A stretch of DNA of 64,000 bases from the NCBI RefSeq assembly GCF_004006315.1, contig NZ_CP026530.1, forward strand, positions 1,662,001 to 1,726,000. The letters are read 5' to 3'. Made by a program: the position numbers and the translations under genes. The stretch is from Nautilia sp. PV-1. GTDB lineage: Bacteria; Campylobacterota; Campylobacteria; Campylobacterales; Nautiliaceae. The notes under the pieces are model-generated. The model made no database searches and was not told where the DNA came from. It saw only the letters and a list, made by a program, of their open reading frames with translations. Within the stretch, counting starts at the first letter, position 1; each line of letters starts with the position of its first letter. Positions 49,260 through 64,000 of the stretch are shown in pieces.

Positions 49260-50786
49260 ATGAAAAAGGTTTTGTTTATTTTATTGATTGTGGTTGGACT
49301 TTTTGCAAATAATTTTGAAAAATACTTTAATATGGCACAAAATTATTACTGGTTAAGTATTGATGAGGGGATAAAAAGCAGTGTGTGGTTTAAAACAAAA
49401 AAATATTTAGCTCTTGCCGAAAAAGAATTAAAAAAAGAACCGAGTAAGCAAAATTTAAAAAAATTAAACGCTTTAAAAGACGAGGTAAATACGTTTTATT
49501 TAACAAAATACTACACAATGGACGGATATTTTCCGATGTTGAAACTTGTGTCAACTTCGTTTTTTTTATTTCCAAAAAAATCAAGACAGCATACACTGGC
49601 AAAACCGGCTGATTTTATTGCCGTGGAAAATGCGTCTGAAAGTTTAACCGACAGGCTTAAAACGGTAGTTCAAAACCATGTGTTTTTTAATTCGTCCAAC
49701 CCTTATTGGAATGAGATTGCGTTTGAAATATTTAACGCAAACGGTAAATATTACGCACATTTAACGGAAGAACCCAAAGAAATCTTAAGCGATAAAGAAT
49801 TAAAAAATTTTTACTCAAACAATATTACCCCGGATATTATCAACAAACTTCTTAAATATGTAAATAAATCAAAAGTTTATATTGTAAGAATCGAAAAAAC
49901 GCCTCTTGAAAAAAACGACATGTATGTCACGGCATACGGGGAAGTTTATACAAAAAACGGATACAATAAAGACAAAAGCAGTATAACTTTCGGATATTCA
50001 ATTGATGAAAGGGGGAAATGGCCTGTACTTATTTTAGTTCATATTTTGCTTTTGGGACTGGTGTTGTTTCTTACCGCTTATTTTGTCAAAAAAACACAAA
50101 ACAGAAGTTTATATCTTATCGTCCTTATCGGATTCACAGTAGGAAGGGTGTTGCCTTGGGTAATAGTCCCGAGTATAGAAAGTTTTATGCCAAACGGGGA
50201 TTTAAACGTTTTATATACCATTTGGTGGGTTGTGTTGGTAGGTATTGCGATAATACTTGCACCTATATATGCCATGGATTTGATATATAAAAAAATACAA
50301 AACTACATAAAACTTCCTTCAATCGCCGGTAAAGGCGGGATAATAGGATTAAGTATAAGTGCGGGGGTGCTCGGATATCTTTTTGTGCCTTATATATTTA
50401 CTTACGGCGATGTTTTAAGCGTTTGGGAAAACCTGTTGTATTTCGGACTGTTTTCATTAGCGGTTCTGTTTTCCGGGTATGTAAGCGGAAAAATATTCGA
50501 TAAAAGTGATAAAACGGAAGAATATTATATTATCGTTTTTGTAATTACAAGCGCTTTGTTGTTTGTATCGCTTGTACATACGGATTTGATTTGGCTTGCC
50601 GTATCAAGTATTTTAACGATAATTGCTTCATTTTTGGTCATTAGAATGAAAAAAAGCGAATTTGTAAAAGAAGTTAAACAAAAATTTGAATCTGTGGAAG
50701 ATATTGAAAAAGGCTTACATCAGGAAAATTATTATGAATTTGAATATTATAACGATTTGATTCAAAAAACGGGGGTAAAAAAATGA
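49260..50786 (+). CDS. Receptor-like membrane protein with a large extracytoplasmic domain
   Basis: A 508-residue protein. Residues 1-17 are a signal peptide or signal anchor (MKKVLFILLIVVGLFANN). Residues about 20-250 have no membrane segment and should lie outside the cytoplasm. Seven hydrophobic segments follow (about 255-276, 283-303, 318-342, 359-380, 391-412, 422-440, 443-461), then a short charged tail. This looks like a 7-TM receptor layout; no family was recognised. First gene of a four-gene operon, overlapping the STAND gene as ATGA. The start is the ATG after AGGGAAAG; a longer frame runs back into the zinc-knuckle gene. Confidence 0.75.
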   Translation: MKKVLFILLIVVGLFANNFEKYFNMAQNYYWLSIDEGIKSSVWFKTKKYLALAEKELKKEPSKQNLKKLNALKDEVNTFYLTKYYTMDGYFPMLKLVSTSFFLFPKKSRQHTLAKPADFIAVENASESLTDRLKTVVQNHVFFNSSNPYWNEIAFEIFNANGKYYAHLTEEPKEILSDKELKNFYSNNITPDIINKLLKYVNKSKVYIVRIEKTPLEKNDMYVTAYGEVYTKNGYNKDKSSITFGYSIDERGKWPVLILVHILLLGLVLFLTAYFVKKTQNRSLYLIVLIGFTVGRVLPWVIVPSIESFMPNGDLNVLYTIWWVVLVGIAIILAPIYAMDLIYKKIQNYIKLPSIAGKGGIIGLSISAGVLGYLFVPYIFTYGDVLSVWENLLYFGLFSLAVLFSGYVSGKIFDKSDKTEEYYIIVFVITSALLFVSLVHTDLIWLAVSSILTIIASFLVIRMKKSEFVKEVKQKFESVEDIEKGLHQENYYEFEYYNDLIQKTGVKK

Positions 50787-52897
50787 AACATATAGCGCTA
50801 TTAGGGGAAGGCGGAGTAGGAAAAACTACCACCGCCCAAAAACTGATTAAGGATTTAAAACCTAAAATCGTAATTTCAGGGGAATGTCCAAAAGAATCGA
50901 ATCCTTATGATTTGTTTTACAATATGCTTGATTCTTTTTTTGAAATAGATTTGTTTAATAAAAGGGAATCCAACGAACTGGTCGACCAGGTATTGGAAAT
51001 GGCCGGAAGTATTATGTTAGGTCCCATAGCCGGGTTTATGTCAGGTAAAAATGATATGTCAATTTCAAAACAAGATATTTTTATAGCCATTAAAAATAAA
51101 TTTTGGGAATTCAAAGAAGCCGTCGTTTTTATAGATGACATACAATGGATTGACGATGCAAGCAAGGAACTCCTTAAATTTTTATTTGAAGAGCTTAAAG
51201 ATAGCGATTTGTTTTTTGTAATAACATCGAGGGAAAAAGAAATATTGGATGAACTCGGTCTTGAAAACGTTTTTGAATTAAAAGGTTTGGATAAAGTCCA
51301 ACAGTTTGAGTTTTTAAAAAACAATTTTTATCTATCTGACGAAGTGACGGAATGGATTATAAACTGGATAGACGAAGAAAATGCAACTCCGCTGGGGTTG
51401 GTTAATGTGGTTTCGAGTTTATACAGAAAAAATTACCTTGTTAAATCGGAATACGGTTATGTTTTCAGTGAAGAATTTAATCCCGATTTACCAAGTGTCC
51501 CCGATAATATAAAAGAGGATATTAAAGAGATTTTTGAAACTATGCCGGAATACAAAGAAATACTTTCACTTGCGGCAATAATCGGCAAAGAGTTTGATGT
51601 ATCCGTTTTAGCTGACGCCCTTGATATGTCGGTAATTAAAATGACAAATCTTTTATATGAAATTTCAAAAAAAACAAATCTGGTTTATGATGTTTTGAAT
51701 AAAGATAATATTTTTTCTTTTAAATCGCAAATACTGGTGGATGCTATAAAAGAACTCATTAATTATACAGATAAATCGTTTTTGGAAGCAACAGCACCGC
51801 AGATTATAAGATTTTACAATCAAATTATAGCCGAGGCAATGGAGGAAAACAATTATTCCGATATTCAAATTGCCAATTTTTATTACGGAGCGGGTAAAAC
51901 CGTATTACATAAAAATTTCGAATATCAGTTAAAGGCCGCAAGAGCGTGCAAAAATATATTTGAATTTGAAAAGGCCGACAAATATATAGTAAATGCCACG
52001 ACTCTTCTTCAACTGGTGGATAAAAAAGAGGAAGTGGAAGAACTTAAACTGTTAATTGAGGCCGACAGACAGTTTGTTAGGGGAAATATAGATTTGGATT
52101 TTACGAACAGACTGATTGCCAAAACGACCAAAAACTCTTCTGATGAATTAAAAATAGCTACAACCAGAGCAGCTTATAATTCGGGCAGGTTTGACAGAAG
52201 CTATTTTGAAAAATGTTATGAACTGGCTGAAAATTATCTTATTCCGAGCGAAAACAAGTATACAAAAGCCGAAGGTTATCATTTTGCCGCTTTAAGTTTG
52301 GATAACACTCCTGAAAATAAAGAGAAAAAACATAAATATTTTACGGAGGCACTGAAACTTTCAAAAGACAATAAACCTTTATATTCCCAAATAGCTAATT
52401 CTTATGCCGGATTTTTATCTTTTGGTGAAAATCATGAAAAACTGCTTGCAAAAGACTTATTTATTGAAAGTATAGAAATTAAAGAAAACTTACCGGTAAA
52501 AGATTTACCGGGACTTGCAAGGGCATACGGAGGACTTGGGAGGCTTTATCTGTTTTGGGACCCTTGCAATTGTGATAAAGCAATTAAATATTTTGAAAAA
52601 GATTTACAAATCAGTAAAGAATTAAAAGACGAGTTTGGTATTTCAAACATGTATTCGCTTCTTGGTATGGCTTACAGACTCAAAGGAGATTGTGAAAAAG
52701 CAAAAGAATATTATGATAAATCTCTTGAACTCAAACACAATAAAATAGACATATTCGCATCAATATTCGGAAAAATCGCTTGTGGTAGCGGTGAATACGA
52801 CAGAGCAAAAGAGTTTATAAAAGAATATGGCGAACCGCCGGTATTTACTTATAGCTTCTTAAATGATGAAGATAAAGAAAAATTGGGATTAAAATGA
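50783..52897 (+). CDS. STAND-type NTPase with a TPR-like C-terminus
   Basis: A 704-residue protein. The P-loop GEGGVGKTT is at residues 8-16, Walker B VVFIDDIQWIDD at 114-125 and the arginine sensor FVITSREKE at about 145-153; a winged-helix-like region (about 250-340) follows, then helical repeats. Clear TPR patterns lie near 560-690 (ARAYGGLGRLYLFW, SNMYSLLGMAYRLKGDCEKAKEYYDKSLEL). STAND proteins switch on oligomerisation when they sense a trigger, as in Avs defence proteins and MalT regulators. No effector is fused, so the output is probably a neighbour in the operon. Overlaps both neighbours by 4 bp. Confidence 0.82.
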   Translation: MKHIALLGEGGVGKTTTAQKLIKDLKPKIVISGECPKESNPYDLFYNMLDSFFEIDLFNKRESNELVDQVLEMAGSIMLGPIAGFMSGKNDMSISKQDIFIAIKNKFWEFKEAVVFIDDIQWIDDASKELLKFLFEELKDSDLFFVITSREKEILDELGLENVFELKGLDKVQQFEFLKNNFYLSDEVTEWIINWIDEENATPLGLVNVVSSLYRKNYLVKSEYGYVFSEEFNPDLPSVPDNIKEDIKEIFETMPEYKEILSLAAIIGKEFDVSVLADALDMSVIKMTNLLYEISKKTNLVYDVLNKDNIFSFKSQILVDAIKELINYTDKSFLEATAPQIIRFYNQIIAEAMEENNYSDIQIANFYYGAGKTVLHKNFEYQLKAARACKNIFEFEKADKYIVNATTLLQLVDKKEEVEELKLLIEADRQFVRGNIDLDFTNRLIAKTTKNSSDELKIATTRAAYNSGRFDRSYFEKCYELAENYLIPSENKYTKAEGYHFAALSLDNTPENKEKKHKYFTEALKLSKDNKPLYSQIANSYAGFLSFGENHEKLLAKDLFIESIEIKENLPVKDLPGLARAYGGLGRLYLFWDPCNCDKAIKYFEKDLQISKELKDEFGISNMYSLLGMAYRLKGDCEKAKEYYDKSLELKHNKIDIFASIFGKIACGSGEYDRAKEFIKEYGEPPVFTYSFLNDEDKEKLGLK

Positions 52898-53823
52898 AAA
52901 TAGTTTTTGACCCGTATAAAAAAGAGGCAGATAAAAATGAAATTTTAATAGGGCTTGGGAACTGCGAAAAATGTATAAACAAAAACGAAAAATTTGATTC
53001 ATGTGCCGAGTTTTTAGTTCATAATCCAATAAAATACGGCGGGGAAAAAATCGTAATAGAAGATTTTTCTCCCGATACGGTAATTACCATTTATATGTTG
53101 ATTAACGGAAAAATTCCCAAAAAATATATTGATTACGCTACTAAATGGGAGGTCGGAGAGAGCGATAGGGACGTTTTTAAAAGTTACGGGGTGTTGCAAA
53201 ACGCTTTGATTAATTCAATTGATGGCAATGAAAGCGTTAAAGTTGAAAAATCACTTGAATTTTTGGATTTTTTAATCAAAAACGATTATGATTTAGACAA
53301 TATTCCTTCAAATGACAATCCTTTGTATAAACTCGCTTTTAAAAAACTTCAAAATGAATATAAAAAATTTGACGAAACACTTAAAAACGCGGAAATTTAC
53401 ACTTTGAAAATCAACGGAAGAAAAGTTAACGCCGTATTTTTGGATAATGTAAGCGTAACTCCACTCGTTAAACTGCTTCTTCGTCAAAAGTTTGAATTTA
53501 TAGCTTCGTTTAATGAAAAATATAAAGGCGCGGGAAATGACGTGGTGATTTCCGTCTCACCCGAGAGCGGACTTAATTTAAAAGAGTTGTGGGAAAATAT
53601 TGAAAAAGCCGAAACCGAAAAATGGCAGGGGAAAAGACCAAGCGACAATCCCAGGAAAATAGTGTCAACAGATAAATGGAACGAACCGTGGTGGGATGAT
53701 ATGGGAAAATACACCCTTATTGCCGCGCCTAAAAAAACAGGGGAGATGTTTGGAAGCAAACTTGATTATGATGAAGTAAAAAGAATAATTTTACAAACTT
53801 ATAAAGGGGAAAGAGATGAATGA
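52894..53823 (+). CDS. Unrecognised 309-residue operon protein
   Basis: No family recognised with confidence. It has a Cys pair and a third Cys near the start (NCEKCINKNEKFDSC), then SPDTVITIYMLINGKIPKKYIDYATKWEVGESD and, near the end, FIASFNEKYKGAGNDVVISVSPESGLNLKELW and a tryptophan-rich WNEPWWDD. The spread of Asp/Ser motifs and an alpha/beta core vaguely recalls DHH-type phosphoesterases, but the DHH triad is not there. Translational coupling to the STAND gene (ATGA) and to the large gene downstream (8-bp overlap) argues for a shared complex or pathway. Confidence 0.65.
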   Translation: MKIVFDPYKKEADKNEILIGLGNCEKCINKNEKFDSCAEFLVHNPIKYGGEKIVIEDFSPDTVITIYMLINGKIPKKYIDYATKWEVGESDRDVFKSYGVLQNALINSIDGNESVKVEKSLEFLDFLIKNDYDLDNIPSNDNPLYKLAFKKLQNEYKKFDETLKNAEIYTLKINGRKVNAVFLDNVSVTPLVKLLLRQKFEFIASFNEKYKGAGNDVVISVSPESGLNLKELWENIEKAETEKWQGKRPSDNPRKIVSTDKWNEPWWDDMGKYTLIAAPKKTGEMFGSKLDYDEVKRIILQTYKGERDE

Positions 53824-56800
53824 TTTAATTGTAAAATATCCGTCACTTGTGGCCAGACCGTATATGATGATAAAAGACGATTTACAAAAAAAGGATATGC
53901 AAAGATTTTGGTTTGAAAATACAATAAGCTTTTTGGCGACTGTAGTGGGAGCGGAACTTATTGCATGGTATAAGGAACTGAAAAACAAAGAAGATAAAAG
54001 CGAAAAAGAACTTGAAATAATAAAAAAACTTCAAAATCATCCGAGTCTTACAAATGTGGGGCTTGAACATATGAGCCTTGGTAAATGGGTGATGATGTTA
54101 AGGGAAACCGTTAAAATTTTAAAAGAATATAATGTTGATGTGGTATGTCCTGAGATACTGGATTTTTACAATAAAGAAAATGAAGCAATTATCAATAAAC
54201 TCGTAACAATCAGAAACAACGACGCTCACGGAGAACCTATACCAAAAGACAGACTTGAGACCGAACTTTCCAAAAGACAGCAGATGATTGACAAACTTGT
54301 TGAAAATCTTTCTTTTTTACAAAATTACAAGCTTTTAATGCCGGAAAAAATTGAGTTTGAAGGAAACAGACAGCTTTATCTCGTAAAAGAGTTTACAGGA
54401 AATAATATTATAACTTCAAGAGAGGAACTTTCCTTTAATCCGAGACTCAATGATTTGATTTTAATTAATAAAGATAAATTTGTATCTCTTATTCCCAATA
54501 TCGTATATTTGGGAGTTGTGGATGAATCAAAAAGTTTTCTTGGAATTTTGAGTAAATTTGTAGATAAAGACAAAAAAATTGCGAAATATTTAAATTTAGA
54601 GGGAAGCGGAGAAATTGATTACCGAAACGCTATAGAGTATTATCAAATTGACTTTTTGGAAGAGAGAAAACATTTCGATGAGATATATTCCGACCCTGAA
54701 AGCTTTAAGGTTAATTTGGATATTGATTTTAAATTTGAAGACGAAAGTATTTATATTAATCAGGAAAGTTCTTTTAAATTAATTATTGATAATAAAAAAT
54801 CAACGGACCTTGAATCACTGCAAATAAAATTTGAAATTCCGGATATTATGAAAATAACACATCTGCCGGAGAATATAGACAATTTAAAAGATGCAAGCAT
54901 AATCAATAATCAGTTAATTTTGGAATTTAATAAAATAGGTGACGAAGTTATAGAAATTGAAGATATAAAATTCACAATCGATACACAGGGATTCTTTACC
55001 CTAGAAAGAGGTATCGCAACATATAAATATTATAAAACGGTTGCCGAAAAAGATGCGGATATTTTGACAACGGAAGAGATAGAATTCAGTGGCGGAAGTT
55101 TAGAGGTTATAAATCCTGCAAGTAAAGATAAAATAGTCCCGGTTATTAATGTTTATAAAAGATTTCTCGATACTGAAGGGAATGAAATAGAACATATTAA
55201 AATCGGAGAGGATTTTATATTTGAAGTCAGAATCAAAAACATCGGTTTTTCAAGCGCAAAAGACGTAATAGTGGATGTTTTGTTTCCGGAAGGGCTTAAT
55301 CTGAAAAAAGGAAAGGAAAGTATCAGAATTTCACAGTTAAATCCGCTCGAAGAGAAAATCTTTCAGTATGTGTTTTATTCCAAAAAACCGAATATTTATA
55401 CAATTGCGATGCAAAACGTACTTTATTACGATTTAAATAAAAAAAGATATTTTACGCAGTGCAGTGACGAACAGTTTATAATAGTAAGAAGCGATTTACT
55501 TAAAGAGTTTAAATTCAAAATTGAAGAATTTATAGAAGATTTATATATAGATGAAAACGAACAAAAAGAGATTGATAAGCTTATTAAAGAGGCTGAAGAA
55601 AAACTTGGGATTGACGGAAAAAGCTTTTACAAAGAAGCGGAGTTTGAAGCTGTCAGAAATATTGTTAAAGAGATTATTGAAAAAATAGCTTCAAAAAAAC
55701 AGCTTACAATTAATGAAAATATCTATCTAGAAAGTAAAAGGGACAGCAAATTTACAGGTGAAAAACCAAGAAAATTTTTGGTTTATTCGGTAGGAGAATT
55801 TCCGTTTTTTGCAATAAATCTTGACGATTTGGAATTTTACGGACTTGAAACGAATATAAATAAAAGATTTGACAAAATTCAAAGAAAACTTGCAAGGGTA
55901 AATTCGGCTTTTGGTGTATTAGAACATATGGTTGATTATGAAACAGTCAGAAGCAGTGAAGAATACGGAGTTCCGTTTTTTAACCAGTGGATTAATATGA
56001 TTCTTTCTAAAATTGAAAAAGAGTATCTTTTATGGAATAAAATCAGAAAAGAGATAGAAAAAACGTTTGATATAGAATTGAAATTCGGCTCCGGTGATAT
56101 GTATACCAGTGATTTGAAATTTCATCTGTTTATGCAAAGAAGCAATCCTAATACGTATTATTTTAAAATTACGGCTAACAACAAATTTAAAAAATATATT
56201 TCAAAAGCGGACGTATATCTTTTACAAAATATAAACAAAGAAAATAGAAGTTACACAGAAGAGCCTGAAAGACTTTCTCATTTTTGGATTATTACGGATA
56301 AAAAAACAGTGAATCCGGCAATAAAAATGAAAGTGAAAAATGAGAGCGATATTCCGAAATTCATAAATAAAGCAAAAGAGCTTTATAAGGATGTTTTATA
56401 TACGGAATCCCTTTATCTGGTAAGCGAATTTGAAAACGAAGAGTTAAATGAATTCGTAAAAGAATTAAATAATAAAGGATTTTATTTAAAAGAAATAAAT
56501 GATTTCGGTAAAAAAATAGGAATATTTAATTTTGAGGACAATTTAAGCAAAACAGAATCAAAAGATGCAATTTCTTATTTAATACCTGTAAGGAAATGGT
56601 TTGACATTGCCATTAAAACATATTTTGATATAAACGACCTAAAAGATTACGTATTGGTTCAAAGATTTACATGGTCGGGAAGCGGACCTTTGTATATGTT
56701 AAAGGTTAAATCTCCAAGAGAAGAGATTTTAACTAAAACACTTGATTATATATTAAAAGTTTCTGAGAATTACAGTAAAGATAAACTGTTCATATGGCCT

Positions 56801-57514
56801 GAACCTGTTCAAGGTGAAATCATTAATAATTTTGCAAAAGTGGAATATGGGATGTTGACTGTATTTAAAGCAATAGCTGAGGGAAAAACTAAAGTGAATG
56901 AAGTAATTGAATATTTTCCTGAAAAAGAGGAGTTTAATTATTTTTTAAAAAGGCTGAATCAATTGGAAAATCAATATAAAATAAAACCGCCTTTATATAT
57001 AGAAAATAATAAAGTTAAATTGTATGAAGAATATTTGAATTCATTTGAGAATATCAAAAAAATCAATCCTGATTTTCTAGTTGGTGAAGGAATAGGATAT
57101 TATAGAATAGTTTCCTTAAAATTACTTCCATTATTGAATGTTAAATTAAATATAGGTGATTCATGGGCTGAAAGGTATATAAAATTGAATAACAGTGAAG
57201 ATATTAAAGCTGTTATACCATATATTAGCTATAAAAAAGGTTTAACTGTAATAGCTGGAATGGAGTTTAAAGGAGTGAAAGAAAAAGAAGAATTTATGGA
57301 TTATGCAAAACAATTTAAGTTTGATACTGAAATGGATATATTTTACGGAATACGCTCAAATGACCCGAAAATCGAGCTAAAAAAGGAACTTTCCATTAAA
57401 AATATAGAACAAAACAAAGAAATGTTGGCAAACGAAATAAATCACTTTTTTAAAGAAATGGATAGACTTTTGAAAGAAAAGTTTAATGTGTCTATTTTTG
57501 AATTAACAAATTGA
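53816..57514 (+). CDS. Large multidomain protein with a HEPN-like domain and CARDB-like domains
   Basis: A 1232-residue soluble protein. Residues about 1-180 are helical with the motif Arg133-N-N-D-A-His138 (R-x4-H), the mark of HEPN ribonuclease domains. Residues about 300-560 form two beta-rich CARDB/DUF11-like domains (IGEDFIFEVRIKNIGFSSAKDVIVDVLFPEGLNL). Around 565-600 is an EF-hand-like stretch (YIDENEQKEIDKLIKEAEEKLG). The remainder (600-1232) is not recognised. It is the last gene of the coupled operon. If HEPN is active, it would be the RNA-cutting effector, with CARDB parts for binding; that is inference. Confidence 0.65.
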   Translation: MNDLIVKYPSLVARPYMMIKDDLQKKDMQRFWFENTISFLATVVGAELIAWYKELKNKEDKSEKELEIIKKLQNHPSLTNVGLEHMSLGKWVMMLRETVKILKEYNVDVVCPEILDFYNKENEAIINKLVTIRNNDAHGEPIPKDRLETELSKRQQMIDKLVENLSFLQNYKLLMPEKIEFEGNRQLYLVKEFTGNNIITSREELSFNPRLNDLILINKDKFVSLIPNIVYLGVVDESKSFLGILSKFVDKDKKIAKYLNLEGSGEIDYRNAIEYYQIDFLEERKHFDEIYSDPESFKVNLDIDFKFEDESIYINQESSFKLIIDNKKSTDLESLQIKFEIPDIMKITHLPENIDNLKDASIINNQLILEFNKIGDEVIEIEDIKFTIDTQGFFTLERGIATYKYYKTVAEKDADILTTEEIEFSGGSLEVINPASKDKIVPVINVYKRFLDTEGNEIEHIKIGEDFIFEVRIKNIGFSSAKDVIVDVLFPEGLNLKKGKESIRISQLNPLEEKIFQYVFYSKKPNIYTIAMQNVLYYDLNKKRYFTQCSDEQFIIVRSDLLKEFKFKIEEFIEDLYIDENEQKEIDKLIKEAEEKLGIDGKSFYKEAEFEAVRNIVKEIIEKIASKKQLTINENIYLESKRDSKFTGEKPRKFLVYSVGEFPFFAINLDDLEFYGLETNINKRFDKIQRKLARVNSAFGVLEHMVDYETVRSSEEYGVPFFNQWINMILSKIEKEYLLWNKIRKEIEKTFDIELKFGSGDMYTSDLKFHLFMQRSNPNTYYFKITANNKFKKYISKADVYLLQNINKENRSYTEEPERLSHFWIITDKKTVNPAIKMKVKNESDIPKFINKAKELYKDVLYTESLYLVSEFENEELNEFVKELNNKGFYLKEINDFGKKIGIFNFEDNLSKTESKDAISYLIPVRKWFDIAIKTYFDINDLKDYVLVQRFTWSGSGPLYMLKVKSPREEILTKTLDYILKVSENYSKDKLFIWPEPVQGEIINNFAKVEYGMLTVFKAIAEGKTKVNEVIEYFPEKEEFNYFLKRLNQLENQYKIKPPLYIENNKVKLYEEYLNSFENIKKINPDFLVGEGIGYYRIVSLKLLPLLNVKLNIGDSWAERYIKLNNSEDIKAVIPYISYKKGLTVIAGMEFKGVKEKEEFMDYAKQFKFDTEMDIFYGIRSNDPKIELKKELSIKNIEQNKEMLANEINHFFKEMDRLLKEKFNVSIFELTN

Positions 57515-57542: not shown

Positions 57543-58838
57543 AGACTGTTAGAAATTCCGTGTCAGTCTAGATAAAATAACAAAGAAGAAAGGACTGAAA
57601 TGGAAAAGTTTGATTTTGAAAAAGCTGTTAAGGAGTTACTTTCAGGTAAAAAAATAGGAGGTAAAGACGGAGTATTGGCTCCGCTCATAAAAGAACTTGT
57701 AGAAGCTGCACTTGAAGCTGAGATTGAATCCCACATAGCAGATGAAGTATTGCAAAGTAAAAAACAGAAGAAACGGTTACAACAGAAAAACAGTAAAATC
57801 TTCAAGCGGTGAATTTGAACTTGCTACTCCAAGAGACAGAGAAGGAAATTTTGAGCCTCAAATAGTAAAGAAACATCAAACTACAATCAGTGACGAAATA
57901 GAAGAAAAAATTTTATCCATGTATGCTTTAGGAATGAGCTACAGGGATATTAAATCTCATATAGAGGAGATATATCAAATATCCATTTCAACAGCTACAA
58001 TCAATACAATAACGGATAAAATTATAACCAAAGTCAAAGAATGGCAGTCAAGACCGTTAGAATCAATTTATCCTTTTATTTTTATGGACGCAATTCATTA
58101 TAAAATCAAAAACAACGGAAAATATATAAGTAAAGCAGTATATACGATATTGGAAGTAAATTTACAAGGTAAAAAAGAGATATTGGGATTATATCTCAGT
58201 GAAAGTGAAGGAGCGAATTTCTGGCTTTAGGTTTTAAGTGATTTAAGCAACAGAGGTGTTAAAGACATACTTATTGCAAGCATAGACGGTTTAAAAGGAT
58301 TTCCCGAAGCCATTAACTCAATATATCCGAATACAGAGGTTCAGTTATGTGTTCATCAGATAAGAAATTCTTTAAAATATGTGGCTTCCAAAAACCAAAA
58401 AGAGTTTATGAAAGATTTAAAAAAAGTATATCAGGCTGTATCTAAAGAACAGGCCGAAACTGAACTTGACAGACTTGAAGAAAAATGGGAAGACAAATAT
58501 CCAATCGTTATTAAATCATGGAGAAACAAGTGGAATAATCTTTCTAATTATTTCAAATACCCGGAATCCATAAGAAAAGTAATATATACCACCAATATCA
58601 TTGAATACGTCCATAGACAATTCAGGAAACTCACTAAAACCAAAGGTGCTTTTCCGAATGAAGACAGCTTATTGAAATTACTCTATATAGGTATTCAAAA
58701 TGCCCAGAAAAAATGGACTATGCCGATTAGAAACTGGAATCTGACACTCTCTCAGCTGGCTATTTTCTTTGAAGGAAGATTGGATGATGCTTTAAATCTA
58801 TGATATAATTTCCTTAGCTAACACGGAATTATGAACGG
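57543..58838. mobile_element. IS256-family insertion sequence, decayed
   Basis: About 1.3 kb. Left end AGAAATTCCGTGTCA (57551-57565), right end carrying AATTCCGTGT inverted (58821-58830). A second copy of the left end lies 26 bp outside (57525-57539), with the same flanking GACT, so the left tip is duplicated. No target duplication could be identified. It separates the accessory island from the replication module. Confidence 0.75.
57600..58803 (+). pseudogene. IS256-family transposase, frameshifted and with an amber stop
   Basis: Taken together the pieces give a 400-residue Mutator-type transposase: FMDAIH (first Asp), ASIDGLKGFPEAI (second Asp), CVHQIRNSLKY and LEEKWEDKYP (Glu). The first break is one extra A in an A6 run at 57759-57764, between ADEVLQSK and NRRNGYN. 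The second is TAG at 58228-58230 after GANFWL, where CAG (Gln) is expected. The frame is otherwise open to 58803. With two lesions it cannot be active. Confidence 0.9.
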
Positions 58839-58844
58839 TTTTAC

Positions 58845-59099
58845 CTAATAATCTGATTGATTTATATATTGTTTTACAAAATGATAAACATGATAATATT
58901 TAATTTCAAATTCAATATTATATTCATACAGCATAAAATTTATTATTGTTACTATATGTTTAATCTCGAATTCATCTTTTATTAAATCTCTAATAAAATC
59001 TTGCAATACACTACAAACGGTAATTCCCCATAAGTGACCTTCAAAATCCTTTAAAATCAACATTCTTTCAATAAACTGTTTATTGGATAAATGTTTCAT
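58845..59099 (-). CDS. Hypothetical small protein
   Basis: An 84-residue protein (MKHLSNKQFIERMLILKDFEGHLWG) of unknown family, with mixed hydrophobic and charged residues and no membrane segment. A good ribosome site, AAAAGGAG, lies 5 nt before the ATG. Its stop codon touches the right end of the IS, so the IS may have trimmed its C-terminus. First gene of the plasmid-like module. Confidence 0.6.
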   Translation of the reverse strand: MKHLSNKQFIERMLILKDFEGHLWGITVCSVLQDFIRDLIKDEFEIKHIVTIINFMLYEYNIEFEIKYYHVYHFVKQYINQSDY

Positions 59100-59190
59100 A
59101 ACCACTCCTTTTATCTCTTTTATATATATTTATATCTTTTAAGAGCAAAAAATTTTAGAATTTAATAAAAATATGAAAAATTTTTGATTT

Positions 59191-59330
59191 TTAATTCAAT
59201 TTCGTTAAATTTTTTTAAATTTTATTTAATTCCGTTTAATTTCATTTAAGTTTATTAAATTATTTCAAACATATAAGAGAGTGTCTATTCAAGAAGAGAA
59301 AAATTTCAATGTTATTTAATAAAATACAAA
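59191..59330. repeat. Origin-like module A: TTAA steps in 10-bp phase and a conserved block
   Basis: TTAA occurs at 59205, 59215, 59226, 59236, 59246 and 59255, intervals 10, 11, 10, 10, 9, which is one per helical turn. A block shared with module B follows: TTTCAA-ACATATAAGAGAGTGTCTATTC and AAGAGAAAAA, ATGTTATTTAA, AAAATACAA (about 59262-59330). Repeats of this kind bind initiators or bend DNA at plasmid origins. No gene lies in 59100-59391. Confidence 0.6.
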
Positions 59331-59356
59331 TAAATACAACAAATTTAACTTTTATT

Positions 59357-59380
59357 AAACATATAAGGAAACATATAAGG
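59357..59380. repeat. Tandem 12-bp repeat AAACATATAAGG x2
   Basis: Two perfect adjacent copies of AAACATATAAGG, and a third partial one (AAACATATAAG) at about 59267-59277 inside module A. A possible binding site for the module's initiator or regulator. Confidence 0.6.
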
Positions 59381-59395
59381 CAAAAAATGCCTTAT
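59375..59395 (-). terminator. Hairpin at the end of the PP-loop gene
   Basis: ATAAGGCA (59375-59382) pairs with TGCCTTAT (59388-59395) around an AAAAA loop, overlapping the stop codon. No T-run follows the stem on the minus strand, so termination is only possible. Confidence 0.45.
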
Positions 59396-60261
59396 GTTGT
59401 ATATGCAAACGCAAATAAACTTTTAGTTTTTTCTGCTTCGTCAATCAATCTTTGTTTTTCTTTTTCCACAAAAAAACGCATTTTTTTACCGTTCCTAACT
59501 TTGTTAACCGCTTCCTCTAATTCAAAAACTCTCTTACGATATTTATCGTCTGCGGCAACTGCTTTAATCTCAACTGTACGTGCACTAACACACGGAAAAC
59601 ATCCAACTCTCTCCATTCCTAACTCTGTATATAAAGGATTCAATTTAAGACCGTTTTGTTTTATATAATTAAACACCTGTTCTTTTGTCCAGGTAAATAT
59701 AGCATTCCAATAAATTACTTTAAATCTATGCTTCTCTATTTCAAAATTTTTAACATTAAAAATATCGTATCTTTCTGCACGTCTATCACTTTCTTCTGCC
59801 CTGATTCCCTGGACAATAATAAAATCTTTTCCTGCTTTTTTCCCTTTTTGTATATAATTTTCAAATAACCATTTTTTAAAAGGAATAATTTTCAGTTCTT
59901 TCGTACAAAATCTACTAACTAAACCTCTTGGAATCCTTTTTTTTCGCACGCATAAATTCTTCATACCTTCAGTTTCAATACGTTCAATTTTTAATCCCAA
60001 TTTTTTTTCAATATAAGTTAAATATTGATAAGTATATTCATGCTCCCATTTTGTATCAAAAAAAAGGATACGGATTCGGTTTTTTTTGTTATACTTTCGT
60101 ATATGGTTTAAAACAAATAAAAGGACAGCTGTGCTGTCTTTACCTCCACTAAACATGATAATAAAATCCCCTACAAACTCTTCTAAATTTACATTTACTG
60201 TTTTTTCTTTTTTGATTTTTTTGGGGGGCTCTTTTTCTTGTAAATTAAATAGTGTTTCCAT
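59392..60261 (-). CDS. PP-loop (PAPS-reductase-like) protein of mobile elements
   Basis: A 289-residue adenine-nucleotide alpha-hydrolase. The PP-loop FSGGKDSTAVLL is at about residues 37-48; further marks are FFDTKWEHEYTYQYL, SRFCTKELKIIPFKKWL, GIRAEESDRRAE and a CFPC pair near the end (GCFPCVSARTVE). It lacks the CysH C-terminal ECGLH-type tail, so it is not a sulfate-assimilation enzyme. Relatives are common on phages and plasmids and include DndC, which puts sulfur into DNA, but no other dnd gene is seen. The ATG at 60261 follows AAAAGGAG. A TTGTCAA-N5-TTGACAA dyad lies just upstream. Confidence 0.78.
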   Translation of the reverse strand: METLFNLQEKEPPKKIKKEKTVNVNLEEFVGDFIIMFSGGKDSTAVLLFVLNHIRKYNKKNRIRILFFDTKWEHEYTYQYLTYIEKKLGLKIERIETEGMKNLCVRKKRIPRGLVSRFCTKELKIIPFKKWLFENYIQKGKKAGKDFIIVQGIRAEESDRRAERYDIFNVKNFEIEKHRFKVIYWNAIFTWTKEQVFNYIKQNGLKLNPLYTELGMERVGCFPCVSARTVEIKAVAADDKYRKRVFELEEAVNKVRNGKKMRFFVEKEKQRLIDEAEKTKSLFAFAYTT

Positions 60262-60288
60262 TGTCACTCCTTTTAATTTTTCTAATTT

Positions 60289-60311
60289 TTTTGTCAAATT
60301 ATTTGACAAAA
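60289..60311. promoter_or_regulatory. Operator-like dyad 1 (TTGTCAA-N5-TTGACAA)
   Basis: A perfect dyad: TTTGTCAAAT (60290-60299), one central base, ATTTGACAAA (60301-60310). It is 28 bp upstream of the PP-loop gene. Its 19-bp core TTGTCAA-N5-TTGACAA is found again at 60478 and 63286. Confidence 0.65.
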
Positions 60312-60477
60312 GTATCTGACACCAAAACAAATAAGCTCTGTACTTCACAAACATCACTCGATATATATTTTTTTATATATCGGTTGGCAAAATTCTCTTC
60401 TATACAAAAGAATCTTACCGTATTTTGAACATAAAAGTAAAGCAAATAATTTGACAAAAGTCCGCAGTTATGGTGTT

Positions 60478-60496
60478 TTGTCAATTATTTTGACAT
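60478..60496. promoter_or_regulatory. Operator-like dyad 2 (TTGTCAA-N5-TTGACAT)
   Basis: TTGTCAA (60478-60484), TTATT, TTGACAT (60490-60496), one mismatch from a perfect dyad. A half-site TTGACAA lies nearby at 60451-60457. This gap (60262-61041) has no convincing gene. Confidence 0.6.
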
Positions 60497-60562
60497 TGAA
60501 AATGAACTAATGGATATTTAAAAAATAAAAAATTAATTTGTAAAATTTTTCAAAAAATTTTT

Positions 60563-60725
60563 TTAAAATTTACATCTGGTTTAATTTTTTTAAGTCTGTT
60601 TAATAATATTTAATTTTGTTTAATTCTTTTAAATTTCATTAAAAAACATTAAATTCTTTCAACTATATAACAGAATGTCTATTCGAAAAGAGAAAAAATT
60701 TAATGTTATTTAACAAAATACAACA
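60563..60725. repeat. Origin-like module B: eight TTAA steps in 10-bp phase and a conserved block
   Basis: TTAA at 60581, 60590, 60600, 60610, 60620, 60629, 60639 and 60649: intervals 9, 10, 10, 10, 9, 10, 10. The block shared with module A follows at once: TTTCAA-CTATATAACAGAATGTCTATTC and AAGAGAAAAAA, ATGTTATTTAA, AAAATACAA (60657-60725). The phased part is longer and more regular than in module A. Confidence 0.65.
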
Positions 60726-60748
60726 AAATTTATTTTTCTTAAATAAAA

Positions 60749-60836
60749 TATAATAAAATTGGATTGAACGATGAAAACCGAAACGGAACCTAAAGGAGCG
60801 CACCTAAAGCCTCAATAACCGCTCTTTTTTTTCTTT
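60749..60836 (+). ncRNA. Candidate short transcript with terminator and 15-codon ORF
   Basis: A -10 TATAAT (60749-60754) is followed by a 15-codon frame (60771-60818, MKTETEPKGAHLKPQ), containing the direct repeat ACCTAAAG twice. Then comes a stem GAGCG (60796-60800)/CGCTC (60820-60824) and eight T. The transcript would be about 70 nt. It may be a small RNA or leader peptide controlling replication, placed right after module B. The stem is only 5 bp. Confidence 0.4.
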
Positions 60837-60864
60837 TCCCCTTTTGCTATATATACTTATTAAT

Positions 60865-60898
60865 ACTATGGCGGACATAAAGTCCGCCTATATAGTAT
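60865..60898. other. Strong hairpin between module B and the initiator gene
   Basis: GGCGGAC (60870-60876) pairs with GTCCGCC (60882-60888) around ATAAA, extended by flanking ACTAT/ATAGT. It is GC-rich in very AT-rich DNA. It could end the repC transcript or serve as a single-strand replication signal; it has no T-run. Confidence 0.5.
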
Positions 60899-61041
60899 CT
60901 ATATTTACTATAAATACTATAATATCTTGAACCGACCATTTTATCTGCGTTTTTGGAAAATTTTGTCACCCATTGTTTCTCACAATATTACCCGCAATTT
61001 CCCATACTGTCCCCTCTCATTTTCCTTTGTGGAAAAAAAAA

Positions 61042-61863
61042 TCATCGAACTTTGTTTAATCTTTTTTGCGCCAAATCTGTCCTTACCCACATTTCTTCTA
61101 GTTTATCGTATTTATATGTAGGAATATCAAAATTTTTATGCAAAACGTTAAATGCTTTTTTTATTTTTTCACGTTTTTTTCTTTTGTCCATATTTGTATT
61201 ATTGAGATTAAGTATATCAAACAACAAATCTTCTCTATATTTTTCCCGCCATTTTAATAATTTTCTACCGTTTACATTAAATTTAGTTTTAGACCCCTGC
61301 ATAAAAGCATATAAAAGTATTGCATATTCAGTTCTTCCTGTTAATTCTTTTTCCAATATTAAAAAGTTTCCTAGATTCACCAAGATGCCTTTGTTTATAA
61401 CTGTTTCTATAAACTTTTTATTTGCAAAAATTTCAATTTCTTTATAATCGTTATCATATTTAACATCATATATATATTTTGTCATACGGGCTTTACCGTT
61501 TTTCGTAAAAAACAAGTCTACTTTAGATAATCTTATTATACTTTCTAGAAGCGTTTTTCTGTTAATTTTTTTATTAAGAACCCCTCTTTCTTTTACCAGT
61601 TTAACCAAATCAAATTTCTTTACGGCTGCTTCTTTTCCGTCAACTTCAATTATATCCCAATCTTGTTTTGAATATTCTTTGATAATAAACATTAATGTTA
61701 TTAAATCATACGTATTAAGCGATTCCGGTGCTTTTGCTTTAAAAACCACATTACCCCACTTTCTCTCAATTTCCATTTGTTTTCTTTTTCTAGAGGGAAG
61801 AAAAGGTAAAAAATGCAGCGTTCTATCATCTAATTTACTTTCAAGATTTTTAATAAATTTCAT
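61042..61863 (-). CDS. Replication initiator, RepC-like
   Basis: A 273-residue basic protein with winged-helix character (two helix-rich halves, KRKKREKIKKAFNVLHKNFDIPTYKY near the end). Its length, charge and place right after a RepA-type helicase match RepC of IncQ plasmids, which binds origin iterons. Sequence likeness alone is weak. The ATG at 61863 follows GGTGA and overlaps repA by 14 bp; the longer start at 61914 adds residues inside repA. Confidence 0.65.
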   Translation of the reverse strand: MKFIKNLESKLDDRTLHFLPFLPSRKRKQMEIERKWGNVVFKAKAPESLNTYDLITLMFIIKEYSKQDWDIIEVDGKEAAVKKFDLVKLVKERGVLNKKINRKTLLESIIRLSKVDLFFTKNGKARMTKYIYDVKYDNDYKEIEIFANKKFIETVINKGILVNLGNFLILEKELTGRTEYAILLYAFMQGSKTKFNVNGRKLLKWREKYREDLLFDILNLNNTNMDKRKKREKIKKAFNVLHKNFDIPTYKYDKLEEMWVRTDLAQKRLNKVR

Positions 61864-62809
61864 CGTCGTCACCTTCAAATTCAGTACAATTACAAACATC
61901 CAGCACTCCATCAAAACCTTTAACTAAATAAATATCTTCGGGAATCGCTGCATAATTAACTTTGGCAAAAGTTACTTTTACAAAATGTTTTCTCATTTCT
62001 TCCTGAATTCTTAATTCTTTTGCCTCATCCTTACTTAAAACACTCATATTAATTAATAATCTTGCATTATCCACTAGTGCACTAGCCCCGCGCATTGCAG
62101 TTTGTCCATTTGATTTTTCCAAAATAGCTGTCTTGTTTTGATGATGCAATAAAAGTATAGTTGTACCCGTTTTATTGCAGATTTCTTCTAGTATTTTTAG
62201 TATCTCAGACATCTTAGCGTTATTATTTTCATCTTCTCCATGTAATCGGCGAAACGTATCTATAATAATTAATCTTGATTTTTGTCCTAATTTCAGCAAT
62301 ATATTATATGCTTTATCCTGTAATTCACCATCCTTATATAAATTAAAATTTTTTCCATAAAGCCCGTATACCATTAAATTTTTATCAATCGATTGCAAAG
62401 CTTTATATCCATTTGCTTCGCCAAACTCTCTTATAATTTTTCTACTGATTTTTTGTATTCTGTTTTCCAGAATTTCTGTTGGGTCTTCCAAGTTGAGATA
62501 ACAAACAATTCCTCGCTGGTGTGAATTGTTTATTACTGGAATAAAATTGTAAGTTTTTGTTGTATCCGCCAAGCTAAAAGCAAGATGTAAAGCAAGCATA
62601 CTTTTTCCAGTACCACCTGCGCTGCTTATAAAACCAATAGTCCCGCTCTTTAAACCCGTAAACACAAAATCCAGCGGTGGCAATTCTTTTTTAAATATAT
62701 TTAATACCGATAAAGGCTCAGTCCCCTTTTTTTGGATATTTTTATTTTGTGAATTTTCAATGTGTTCATTAACAACATTATTTTTGAATAAATTGTTGTT
62801 TCCGCTCAT
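61850..62809 (-). CDS. RepA-type hexameric replicative helicase
   Basis: A 319-residue RecA/DnaB-fold ATPase. Walker A is ISSAGGTGKSMLALHLAFSLA (about residues 58-75), Walker B LIIIDTFRRLHGEDENN, the following motif TTILLLHHQNK, then AMRGASALVDNARLL. This is the RSF1010 RepA / AAA_25 pattern. The start ATG at 62809 has AAGGTGG 5 nt upstream; a GTG at 62818 overlaps that site. It is cotranscribed with repC and the small gene upstream. Confidence 0.85.
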   Translation of the reverse strand: MSGNNNLFKNNVVNEHIENSQNKNIQKKGTEPLSVLNIFKKELPPLDFVFTGLKSGTIGFISSAGGTGKSMLALHLAFSLADTTKTYNFIPVINNSHQRGIVCYLNLEDPTEILENRIQKISRKIIREFGEANGYKALQSIDKNLMVYGLYGKNFNLYKDGELQDKAYNILLKLGQKSRLIIIDTFRRLHGEDENNNAKMSEILKILEEICNKTGTTILLLHHQNKTAILEKSNGQTAMRGASALVDNARLLINMSVLSKDEAKELRIQEEMRKHFVKVTFAKVNYAAIPEDIYLVKGFDGVLDVCNCTEFEGDDDEIY

Positions 62810-63200: not shown

Positions 63201-63285
63201 TATTACTCCTTTTCTACTCAATTATAATAAAAAAGTCGCATATAAAACTTATAAAAAACTCCTCGAAATTCCCGTAATATCGGAT

Positions 63286-63304
63286 TTGTCAATATAATTG
63301 ACAA
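63286..63304. promoter_or_regulatory. Operator-like dyad 3 (TTGTCAA-N5-TTGACAA)
   Basis: TTGTCAA (63286-63292), TATAA, TTGACAA (63298-63304), a perfect dyad. It lies between the divergent rep operon and the primase gene, where it could control both. The rest of this gap (63201-63506) is AT-rich with no gene seen. Confidence 0.65.
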
Positions 63305-63506
63305 TTTATATGAAGTAATGAAAGTTTTGTATGCAGAATCAATATTTTAAAAATTTTTCAAAAATTTCTTTTTTAAGACTTCTAAATAGCTTTTTTTTAC
63401 ATTTTCTCTTGAATTTAGCTTAAACAATATTTTTTTTTAGATTTTTTATAAGAATTAAATAAAAAGCGAGCTCTAACAATATAAATATATTAAAAAGGAG
63501 TTTACT

Positions 63507-64000
63507 ATGAAACAATTTGATGATAACTTTTTGCAATTCATCAGAGATAATATTCCGGTAGAAGATATTTTGGAAAATATATTTAACTTTCAAAAAGATA
63601 TACAAAGAAGTTCAATTAACTCACAGGTATATCTCACAGATAAAGGAAAAAAGATTATTACATTTCATAAAAATGGAGCTAATGCCTGGTTTACACTTAA
63701 TGGAGTCAAAGGAGACAACATAAAACTTGTACAATTTCTCGAAGATTGTGATTTTGTAACAGCTGTAAAAAAACTTGCTGATTTTTACAACATAAATCCC
63801 CTAAACTATAACTATAGTTTTATTAATCTTAATAAAAAGCCGACTTTACAAAGAGCTGTTGAAAGAAAAGAAAAAATTAAAAAAGAAATAGCGGAAGCTG
63901 AAAAAAATTCTAAAAAAGCTATCGAGAATTATAAAAATCTTAGAATAAACAAGCACTTCACGAACGATATTCGTGGCATTTCAAAAGCATTACTAAATTA
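63507..64000 (+). CDS. Primase-like protein with a CHC2-type domain lacking zinc cysteines (partial)
   Basis: At least 164 residues, running off the window (the last two bases, TA, could be part of a stop). The part around ITFHKNGANAWFTLNGVKGDNIKLVQFLEDCDFVTAVKKLADFY follows the fold of CHC2 domains in plasmid and phage primases (DUF3991/toprim type), but the zinc Cys/His residues are missing. A basic coiled-coil stretch follows. The ATG has AAAAAGGAG 6 nt upstream. It fits a plasmid replication or mobilisation primase; the toprim part, if present, is outside. Confidence 0.6.
   Translation, partial: MKQFDDNFLQFIRDNIPVEDILENIFNFQKDIQRSSINSQVYLTDKGKKIITFHKNGANAWFTLNGVKGDNIKLVQFLEDCDFVTAVKKLADFYNINPLNYNYSFINLNKKPTLQRAVERKEKIKKEIAEAEKNSKKAIENYKNLRINKHFTNDIRGISKALLN

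Follow-up and report, generated by a model that had tools for sequence, protein, structure and literature searches.

Tandem iterons of about 20-22 bp are a feature of IncQ oriV regions. For RSF1010, gene E and the F repressor gene are described as preceding repA in the operon (PMC2200642), and the account given of the R388 stbDRs is of two sets of five 9-bp repeats, 2 bp apart (PMC3098194). In promoters of C. jejuni a periodic A/T-rich pattern is reported to replace the -35 box (PMC3656092). Here we compare with these systems a pair of AT-rich modules, A and B, of Nautilia sp. PV-1. The window, meaning the whole stretch of DNA analysed, has 64,000 nucleotides and covers 1662001-1726000 of a genome that consists of one contig of 1.79 Mb. 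A search of the literature by titles and the opening lines of abstracts turned up no paper on the element in which the modules lie.

This element is an integrated plasmid-like replicon. It encodes a RepA helicase of the RSF1010 type, a RepC-like protein, a primase of the DnaG type and a tyrosine integrase (Table 1). Judged by homology to the same element in JAMOTL01, a Nautiliaceae MAG (G135 in our set), it extends over about 58845-67566; rightward of the primase gene follow genes for an AAA protein and for the integrase (66026-67408, extended coordinates). By blastn, the two elements were 89.7% identical over 6980 bases, with a separate 499-base match (87%) that spanned the 84-aa gene and the module, and coding identity for the repC, repA, AAA and integrase genes was 89.7-90.9%. 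The RepC-like protein matched the Pfam RepC model at E 0.042 and 13.5 bits, below the cut-off of 22.8, and its AlphaFold model was poor (pLDDT 47). We found no relatives of it in plasmids, and none of it or of RepA in viral contigs. A single-sequence RepC search of 199 genomes of the order recovered only the own genome and JAMOTL01, and a profile search of 397 genomes of the class recovered only the own genome, with JAMOTL01 missing from the result. A search of the element for att sites gave no convincing direct repeat, and neither att sites nor element ends were found.

The palindrome TGTCAA-N5-TTGACA stands twice before the PP-loop gene, then before the rep operon and, with a single mismatch, at 67452 (extended coordinates) before the integrase gene; JAMOTL01 keeps both of the sites that lie outside the cassette. 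We regard it as a putative element-wide operator, likely served by one regulator. We also noted remnants of a mutator-type transposase (57742-58803), split by a TAG stop codon, where the element ends on the left; the corresponding end in JAMOTL01 bears a different mutator transposase. Upstream of the element, 50783-57514 encodes a large AAA-TPR protein and a 1232-aa protein of no clear family, and these proteins had no clear match to a defence system.

Table 1. Features of the element, in window coordinates.
Feature	Position	Strand	Remarks
84-aa protein gene	58845..59099 (ORF listed from 59105)	-	immediately left of module A
Module A	59183..59335	+	6 TTWAA boxes, centres 59207-59257, exact 10-bp spacing, and distal block
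Cassette between modules	59336..60579		about 1.24 kb; absent from JAMOTL01
PP-loop gene	59392..60261	-	PAPS_reduct family, Pfam E 1.1e-24; phrog_424 E 2.4e-47
Perfect palindrome TGTCAA-N5-TTGACA	60292..60308		upstream of PP-loop gene
Second palindrome (60479-60495) and AT stretch	60477..60566		resembles rep-operon upstream region 63285-63376
Module B	60580..60729	+	7 TTWAA boxes, centres 60591-60651, exact 10-bp spacing, and distal block
Conserved non-coding region from B to repC, origin candidate	60836..61041		own genome and JAMOTL01 only, 2/21 family genomes
Hairpin GGCGGAC-ATAAA-GTCCGCC (60870-60888) and TACTAT/ATAGTA repeats	60863..60925		within origin candidate
RepC-like gene	61042..61863	-	weak RepC similarity; overlaps end of repA
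RepA-type replicative helicase gene	61850..62806	-	PDB 1g8y (RepA) E 7.3e-33; tblastn 32% to IncQ plasmid RepA
First rep-operon gene, 126 aa	62820..63200	-	ORF; no assigned family
Perfect palindrome TGTCAA-N5-TTGACA	63287..63303		before rep operon; kept in JAMOTL01
DnaG-type primase gene	63507..64000, on to 64610 beyond the window	+	TIGR01391 E 1e-7; CHC2 zinc finger E 0.0014, below cut-off

A preliminary description of this DNA had taken the two modules for duplicates in the same orientation, and pairwise alignment bore this out. Direct repeats at 59195-59335 and 60589-60729 are 79% identical over 141 nt without a gap, at a spacing of 1394, and a gapped local alignment widened the repeat to the limits of Table 1, within about 20 bp of the starts first proposed. 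The score of 138 was far above those of 1000 dinucleotide shuffles (mean 35.8, maximum 59) and of 49 AT-rich stretches of the window compared with the module (at most 48). Identity was 48/66 in the TTAA array and 63/75 in the distal block, GTCTATTC, AGAGAAAAA, ATGTTATTTAA and AAAATACA being common to both modules, and the likeness fades at about 59356 on the right of A. The suggested search for more copies, run over the single 1.79-Mb contig, gave no further full one: the third match was module B again, on its opposite strand, after which the first independent match spanned about 26 bp (E = 0.0025). Two full copies occur in this genome only, among 21 genomes of the family. Weak matches were found in three family genomes (G088, G157 and G124), of which those in G088 and G157 looked, on inspection, like chance AT-rich DNA.

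The phasing proved sharper than first described. Measured at their centres, the TTWAA boxes (W = A or T) follow one another in exact steps of 10 bp, with an eighth box of module B, at 60582, 9 bp off; none of 2000 shuffles equalled A in this respect, and none of 2000 equalled B. Substitutions between A and B swap TTAAA with TTTAA inside the box, and the centre keeps its 10-bp phase. At least four TTWAA boxes at 10 bp occurred at three places in 478,795 bases of family DNA, namely A, B and the module of JAMOTL01. A search for four TTAA strictly 10 bp apart, which matched 3 of the 21 family genomes, says little by itself, because the control with the pattern reversed gave matches in 9 of 21. Boxes in such exact phase would fit a protein that binds cooperatively to one face of the DNA helix. 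The 100-bp stretches of least stability in the element coincide with or adjoin the modules, starting at 60514 and 59120 in the window and at 1929 in the JAMOTL01 element, in keeping with a melting region.

We also looked at phased boxes elsewhere. Viral sequences held 32 stretches with six TTWAA at 10 bp, most of them near-perfect tandem repeats, and none was accepted as a relative of the module. On an environmental phage contig (L095 5587-5641), six TTTAA boxes stand at exactly 10 bp just upstream of a gene that we take to encode a single-strand-binding protein like gp32. Since gp32 of T4 is reported to repress its own mRNA through UUAAA repeats (PMC535899), these boxes may, by analogy, be the operator of the gp32-like gene. 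Another AT-rich stretch, on an integrase-bearing contig of JAMOTL01 (L026 3900-4027), has TTAA mostly about 10 bp apart and fewer exactly spaced boxes than modules A and B; it lies beside a small ORF with no BLASTP likeness to the 84-aa protein.

At E<=1e-20 there was no PP-loop gene anywhere in the JAMOTL01 MAG. The element there carries a single module of 6 boxes spaced by 10 bp, whose left flank is that of A and whose right flank is that of B. Among 39 ungapped sites at which A and B differ, the JAMOTL01 module was A-like at 20, B-like at 13 and matched neither at 6. A single switch from A to B fits 27 of the 33 informative sites, a fit reached in either direction by 72 of 20000 permutations; the best breakpoint leaves 18 A-like and 4 B-like sites on its left and 9 B-like and 2 A-like sites on its right. 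In the left half, A matched the relative at 64/73 positions, while B matched both the relative and A at 51/73. The right half gave 57/73 for A and the relative, 63/73 for B and the relative, and 63/73 for A and B, a weak hybrid signal, so that the right-hand assignment to B rests mainly on the flank. These comparisons concern one relative element, from a MAG, two of the 21 family genomes carrying the element. Assembly collapse is unlikely to lie behind the single module, because the copies differ at about 1 site in 5 and the gene is found nowhere else in the MAG.

Recombination between the modules had been expected to excise the PP-loop gene, and JAMOTL01, without the gene and with one hybrid module, shows that an arrangement like the predicted product exists in nature. 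The same products would arise whether a two-copy ancestor lost the gene or a PP-loop circle with its own version of the module was inserted, which makes gain and loss indistinguishable here. The view of A and B as old duplicates also gained support, in that the left half of A is nearer to the JAMOTL01 module, from another genus, than to B; by these distances, either the A and B versions separated before the elements did or one of them came from a relative. A simple and recent tandem duplication of the module in the lineage of the window, with the PP-loop gene inserted between the copies, would explain their common orientation and the restriction of two full copies to this one genome of the 21. 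A duplication after the split would not give the left-half distances of A unless the left half of B had evolved fast, and we consider this history improbable.

The PP-loop gene probably starts at the ATG at 60261, which is preceded by AAGGAG. Relatives at E<=1e-15 were found in 23 of 50,697 phage records and 4 of 72,556 plasmid records, and none in the viral contigs; judging from these matches and from the phage-type family phrog_424, relatives of the gene are often phage genes. Genome G190 has a 49% identical relative next to ORFs that are presumably terminase and nuclease genes. The upstream part of the cassette, 60477-60566, aligned with 63285-63376 at a score of 50 (shuffle maximum 46) and, with the palindrome left out, at 40, a score matched by 4 of 1000 shuffles. 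This resemblance to the region upstream of the rep operon suggests that the cassette has long been resident in this family of elements. The stretch to the right of the array of A, 59265-59400, with a hairpin where the PP-loop gene ends, folded with z -2.61 as DNA and -1.68 as RNA.

We propose, with a probability of about 0.55, that the modules are diverged direct repeats of a single AT-rich maintenance site by the origin and act as the recombination junction for a PP-loop cassette. The ancestral or reconstituted form would be that of JAMOTL01, with one module between the 84-aa gene and the hairpin region by repC, and the form in the window would hold the cassette between two copies. A single reciprocal crossover in the module, just beyond the right-hand edge of the TTWAA array, would interconvert the two: A crossed with B would yield a single hybrid module and a circle with the PP-loop gene, and the reverse reaction would insert the circle. 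The exchange would presumably be homologous recombination, with its direction likewise conjectural. The module itself would be a maintenance site next to the origin that melts readily and binds a protein. RepC or the 84-aa protein would be the most likely candidate, attaching cooperatively to the 10-bp phased boxes on the same side of the helix.

The 84-aa protein is possibly the binder of the array, a candidate because its gene lies beside the module in both elements, as the comparison with StbA and the stbDRs (PMC3098194) would suggest. It is 89% identical in JAMOTL01, and among the 21 family genomes it occurs in these two. No match was found in Pfam, NCBIfam or PHROG, and none in plasmids. 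AlphaFold models it as all-helical, with five helices (pLDDT 78); Foldseek returned nothing at E<=0.001 for this model, and fold searches were unconvincing (best VIA, Z 4.9). A bolder version of the proposal, which we put forward as quite unlikely, is that the module is a recombination and maintenance site at once. The small protein would coat the array, stabilise the element and promote exchange at the array edge, making the module a reusable docking point by the origin for accessory genes such as a phage-type PP-loop gene.

As an origin, the region between module B and repC is the best candidate that we can infer from conservation and folding. Its core, 60880-60959, is 95-100% identical to JAMOTL01, and 60836-60990 agrees at 144 of 155 positions, whereas identity in the repC, repA and integrase genes is 89.7-90.7%. 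Conservation alone is no mark of an origin, since the 126-aa gene of the rep operon (364/381, 95.5%) is more conserved than the candidate as a whole. The DNA of the candidate folds well beyond shuffles (z -4.53 and -3.57) and contains four of the nine TACTAT/ATAGTA motifs of the element, and the hairpin pattern had 0 matches in viral contigs. From the distal block of B to 60838, folding was little better than in shuffles (z -1.33 as DNA, -0.92 as RNA), and Rfam gave no structured-RNA match for L009 4500-14000; a structured RNA was rejected on both counts.

Two origins, or one origin and an incompatibility or copy-control site, had been the first interpretation of the modules. Phased AT-rich repeats adjoining the rep genes, an exact 10-bp phase kept in both copies and the location of both in or next to the element's least stable DNA would all agree with this. 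The conserved hairpin/TACTAT region beside repC, however, exists on the B side only and is absent at A, which speaks against two full origins, and JAMOTL01 keeps its rep genes with a single module. Titration of an initiator by A would need an initiator that binds the array, and such a protein is hypothetical here. That each module is a full origin, or that A is a titrating copy, thus seems to us unlikely; with the origin proper at 60836-61041, A would amount to a copy moved away from it, falling short of a full origin in its own right.

The modules could also be regulatory. One version makes the module a regulatory array for the 84-aa protein, a centromere or stability operator like the stbDRs, with roles in autoregulation and segregation. 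In both elements the 84-aa gene has the module immediately before it, with about 106 bp from array edge to ATG in the window and about 113 bp in JAMOTL01, and phased short boxes before the gene of a small DNA-binding protein are the layout described for R388 (PMC3098194). But the 84-aa protein has no sequence or fold match to StbA/TraK or to DNA-binding families, module B does not adjoin its gene, and the boxes are of 5 bp at 10 bp, not of 9 bp at 11 bp; we find this version possible but doubtful. In another, the array would be the periodic A/T signal seen in sigma-70 promoters of Campylobacterota, in an unusually strong form, making the modules two promoters. The pattern that takes the place of the -35 box in C. 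jejuni (PMC3656092) and a TATAA just right of each array speak for it, whereas the intergenic DNA of the host shows periodicity in T runs but none in TTWAA once the modules are excluded, and runs of at least four boxes occur nowhere else in 479 kb. The TATAA is followed by G, C or A and lacks the final T, and promoter-like matches in the region were at the shuffle mean (29 against 28.6). Ordinary promoter periodicity is disfavoured by the intergenic DNA and by these matches, and we hold two promoters to be improbable. A maintenance site that doubles as a recombination junction remains our preferred reading.

Among known systems, the element resembles IncQ/RSF1010 in its homologous RepA and in its adjacent, overlapping repA and repC genes. 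A small gene precedes repA in one operon, where RSF1010 is described as having E and the F repressor (PMC2200642). The similarity of its RepC to three IncQ RepC proteins is marginal (hhalign E 4e-4, probability 35%), its primase matches CHC2/DnaG models and not the RepB type, and it is chromosomally integrated, with a tyrosine integrase. No relaxase was found among the eight longer element genes scanned. Tandem iterons of about 20-22 bp were absent from the 20 direct-repeat families inspected of 28, and the 10-bp array and the TACTAT repeats differ from such iterons; to our knowledge, a 10-bp phased TTWAA array has been described for no IncQ origin. The element is thus IncQ-like in helicase and gene order, yet we do not file it as IncQ, because its primase is of another type, the scanned genes include no relaxase and the RepC match is marginal.

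With the stbDRs and StbA of R388, as they are described, this locus shares an array of short direct repeats in helical phase, placed before the gene of a small protein in the neighbourhood of maintenance functions (PMC3098194). It differs in its 5-bp boxes at 10 bp, against 9-bp repeats at 11 bp, and in an 84-aa protein without a match to StbA/TraK; we recognised no StbB-like partner here. As in repeat-bounded gene cassettes or composite elements, a gene is present or absent between direct repeats, and the empty site with a single hybrid repeat is present in JAMOTL01; the repeat here is a non-coding carrier site, unlike an insertion sequence or a recognised attC or att. The locus marks a compact integrated replicon in the Nautiliaceae that carries an exactly phased 10-bp array, itself unusual, and natural filled and empty forms suggest that an accessory gene moves by way of a duplicated non-coding site and not of an insertion sequence.
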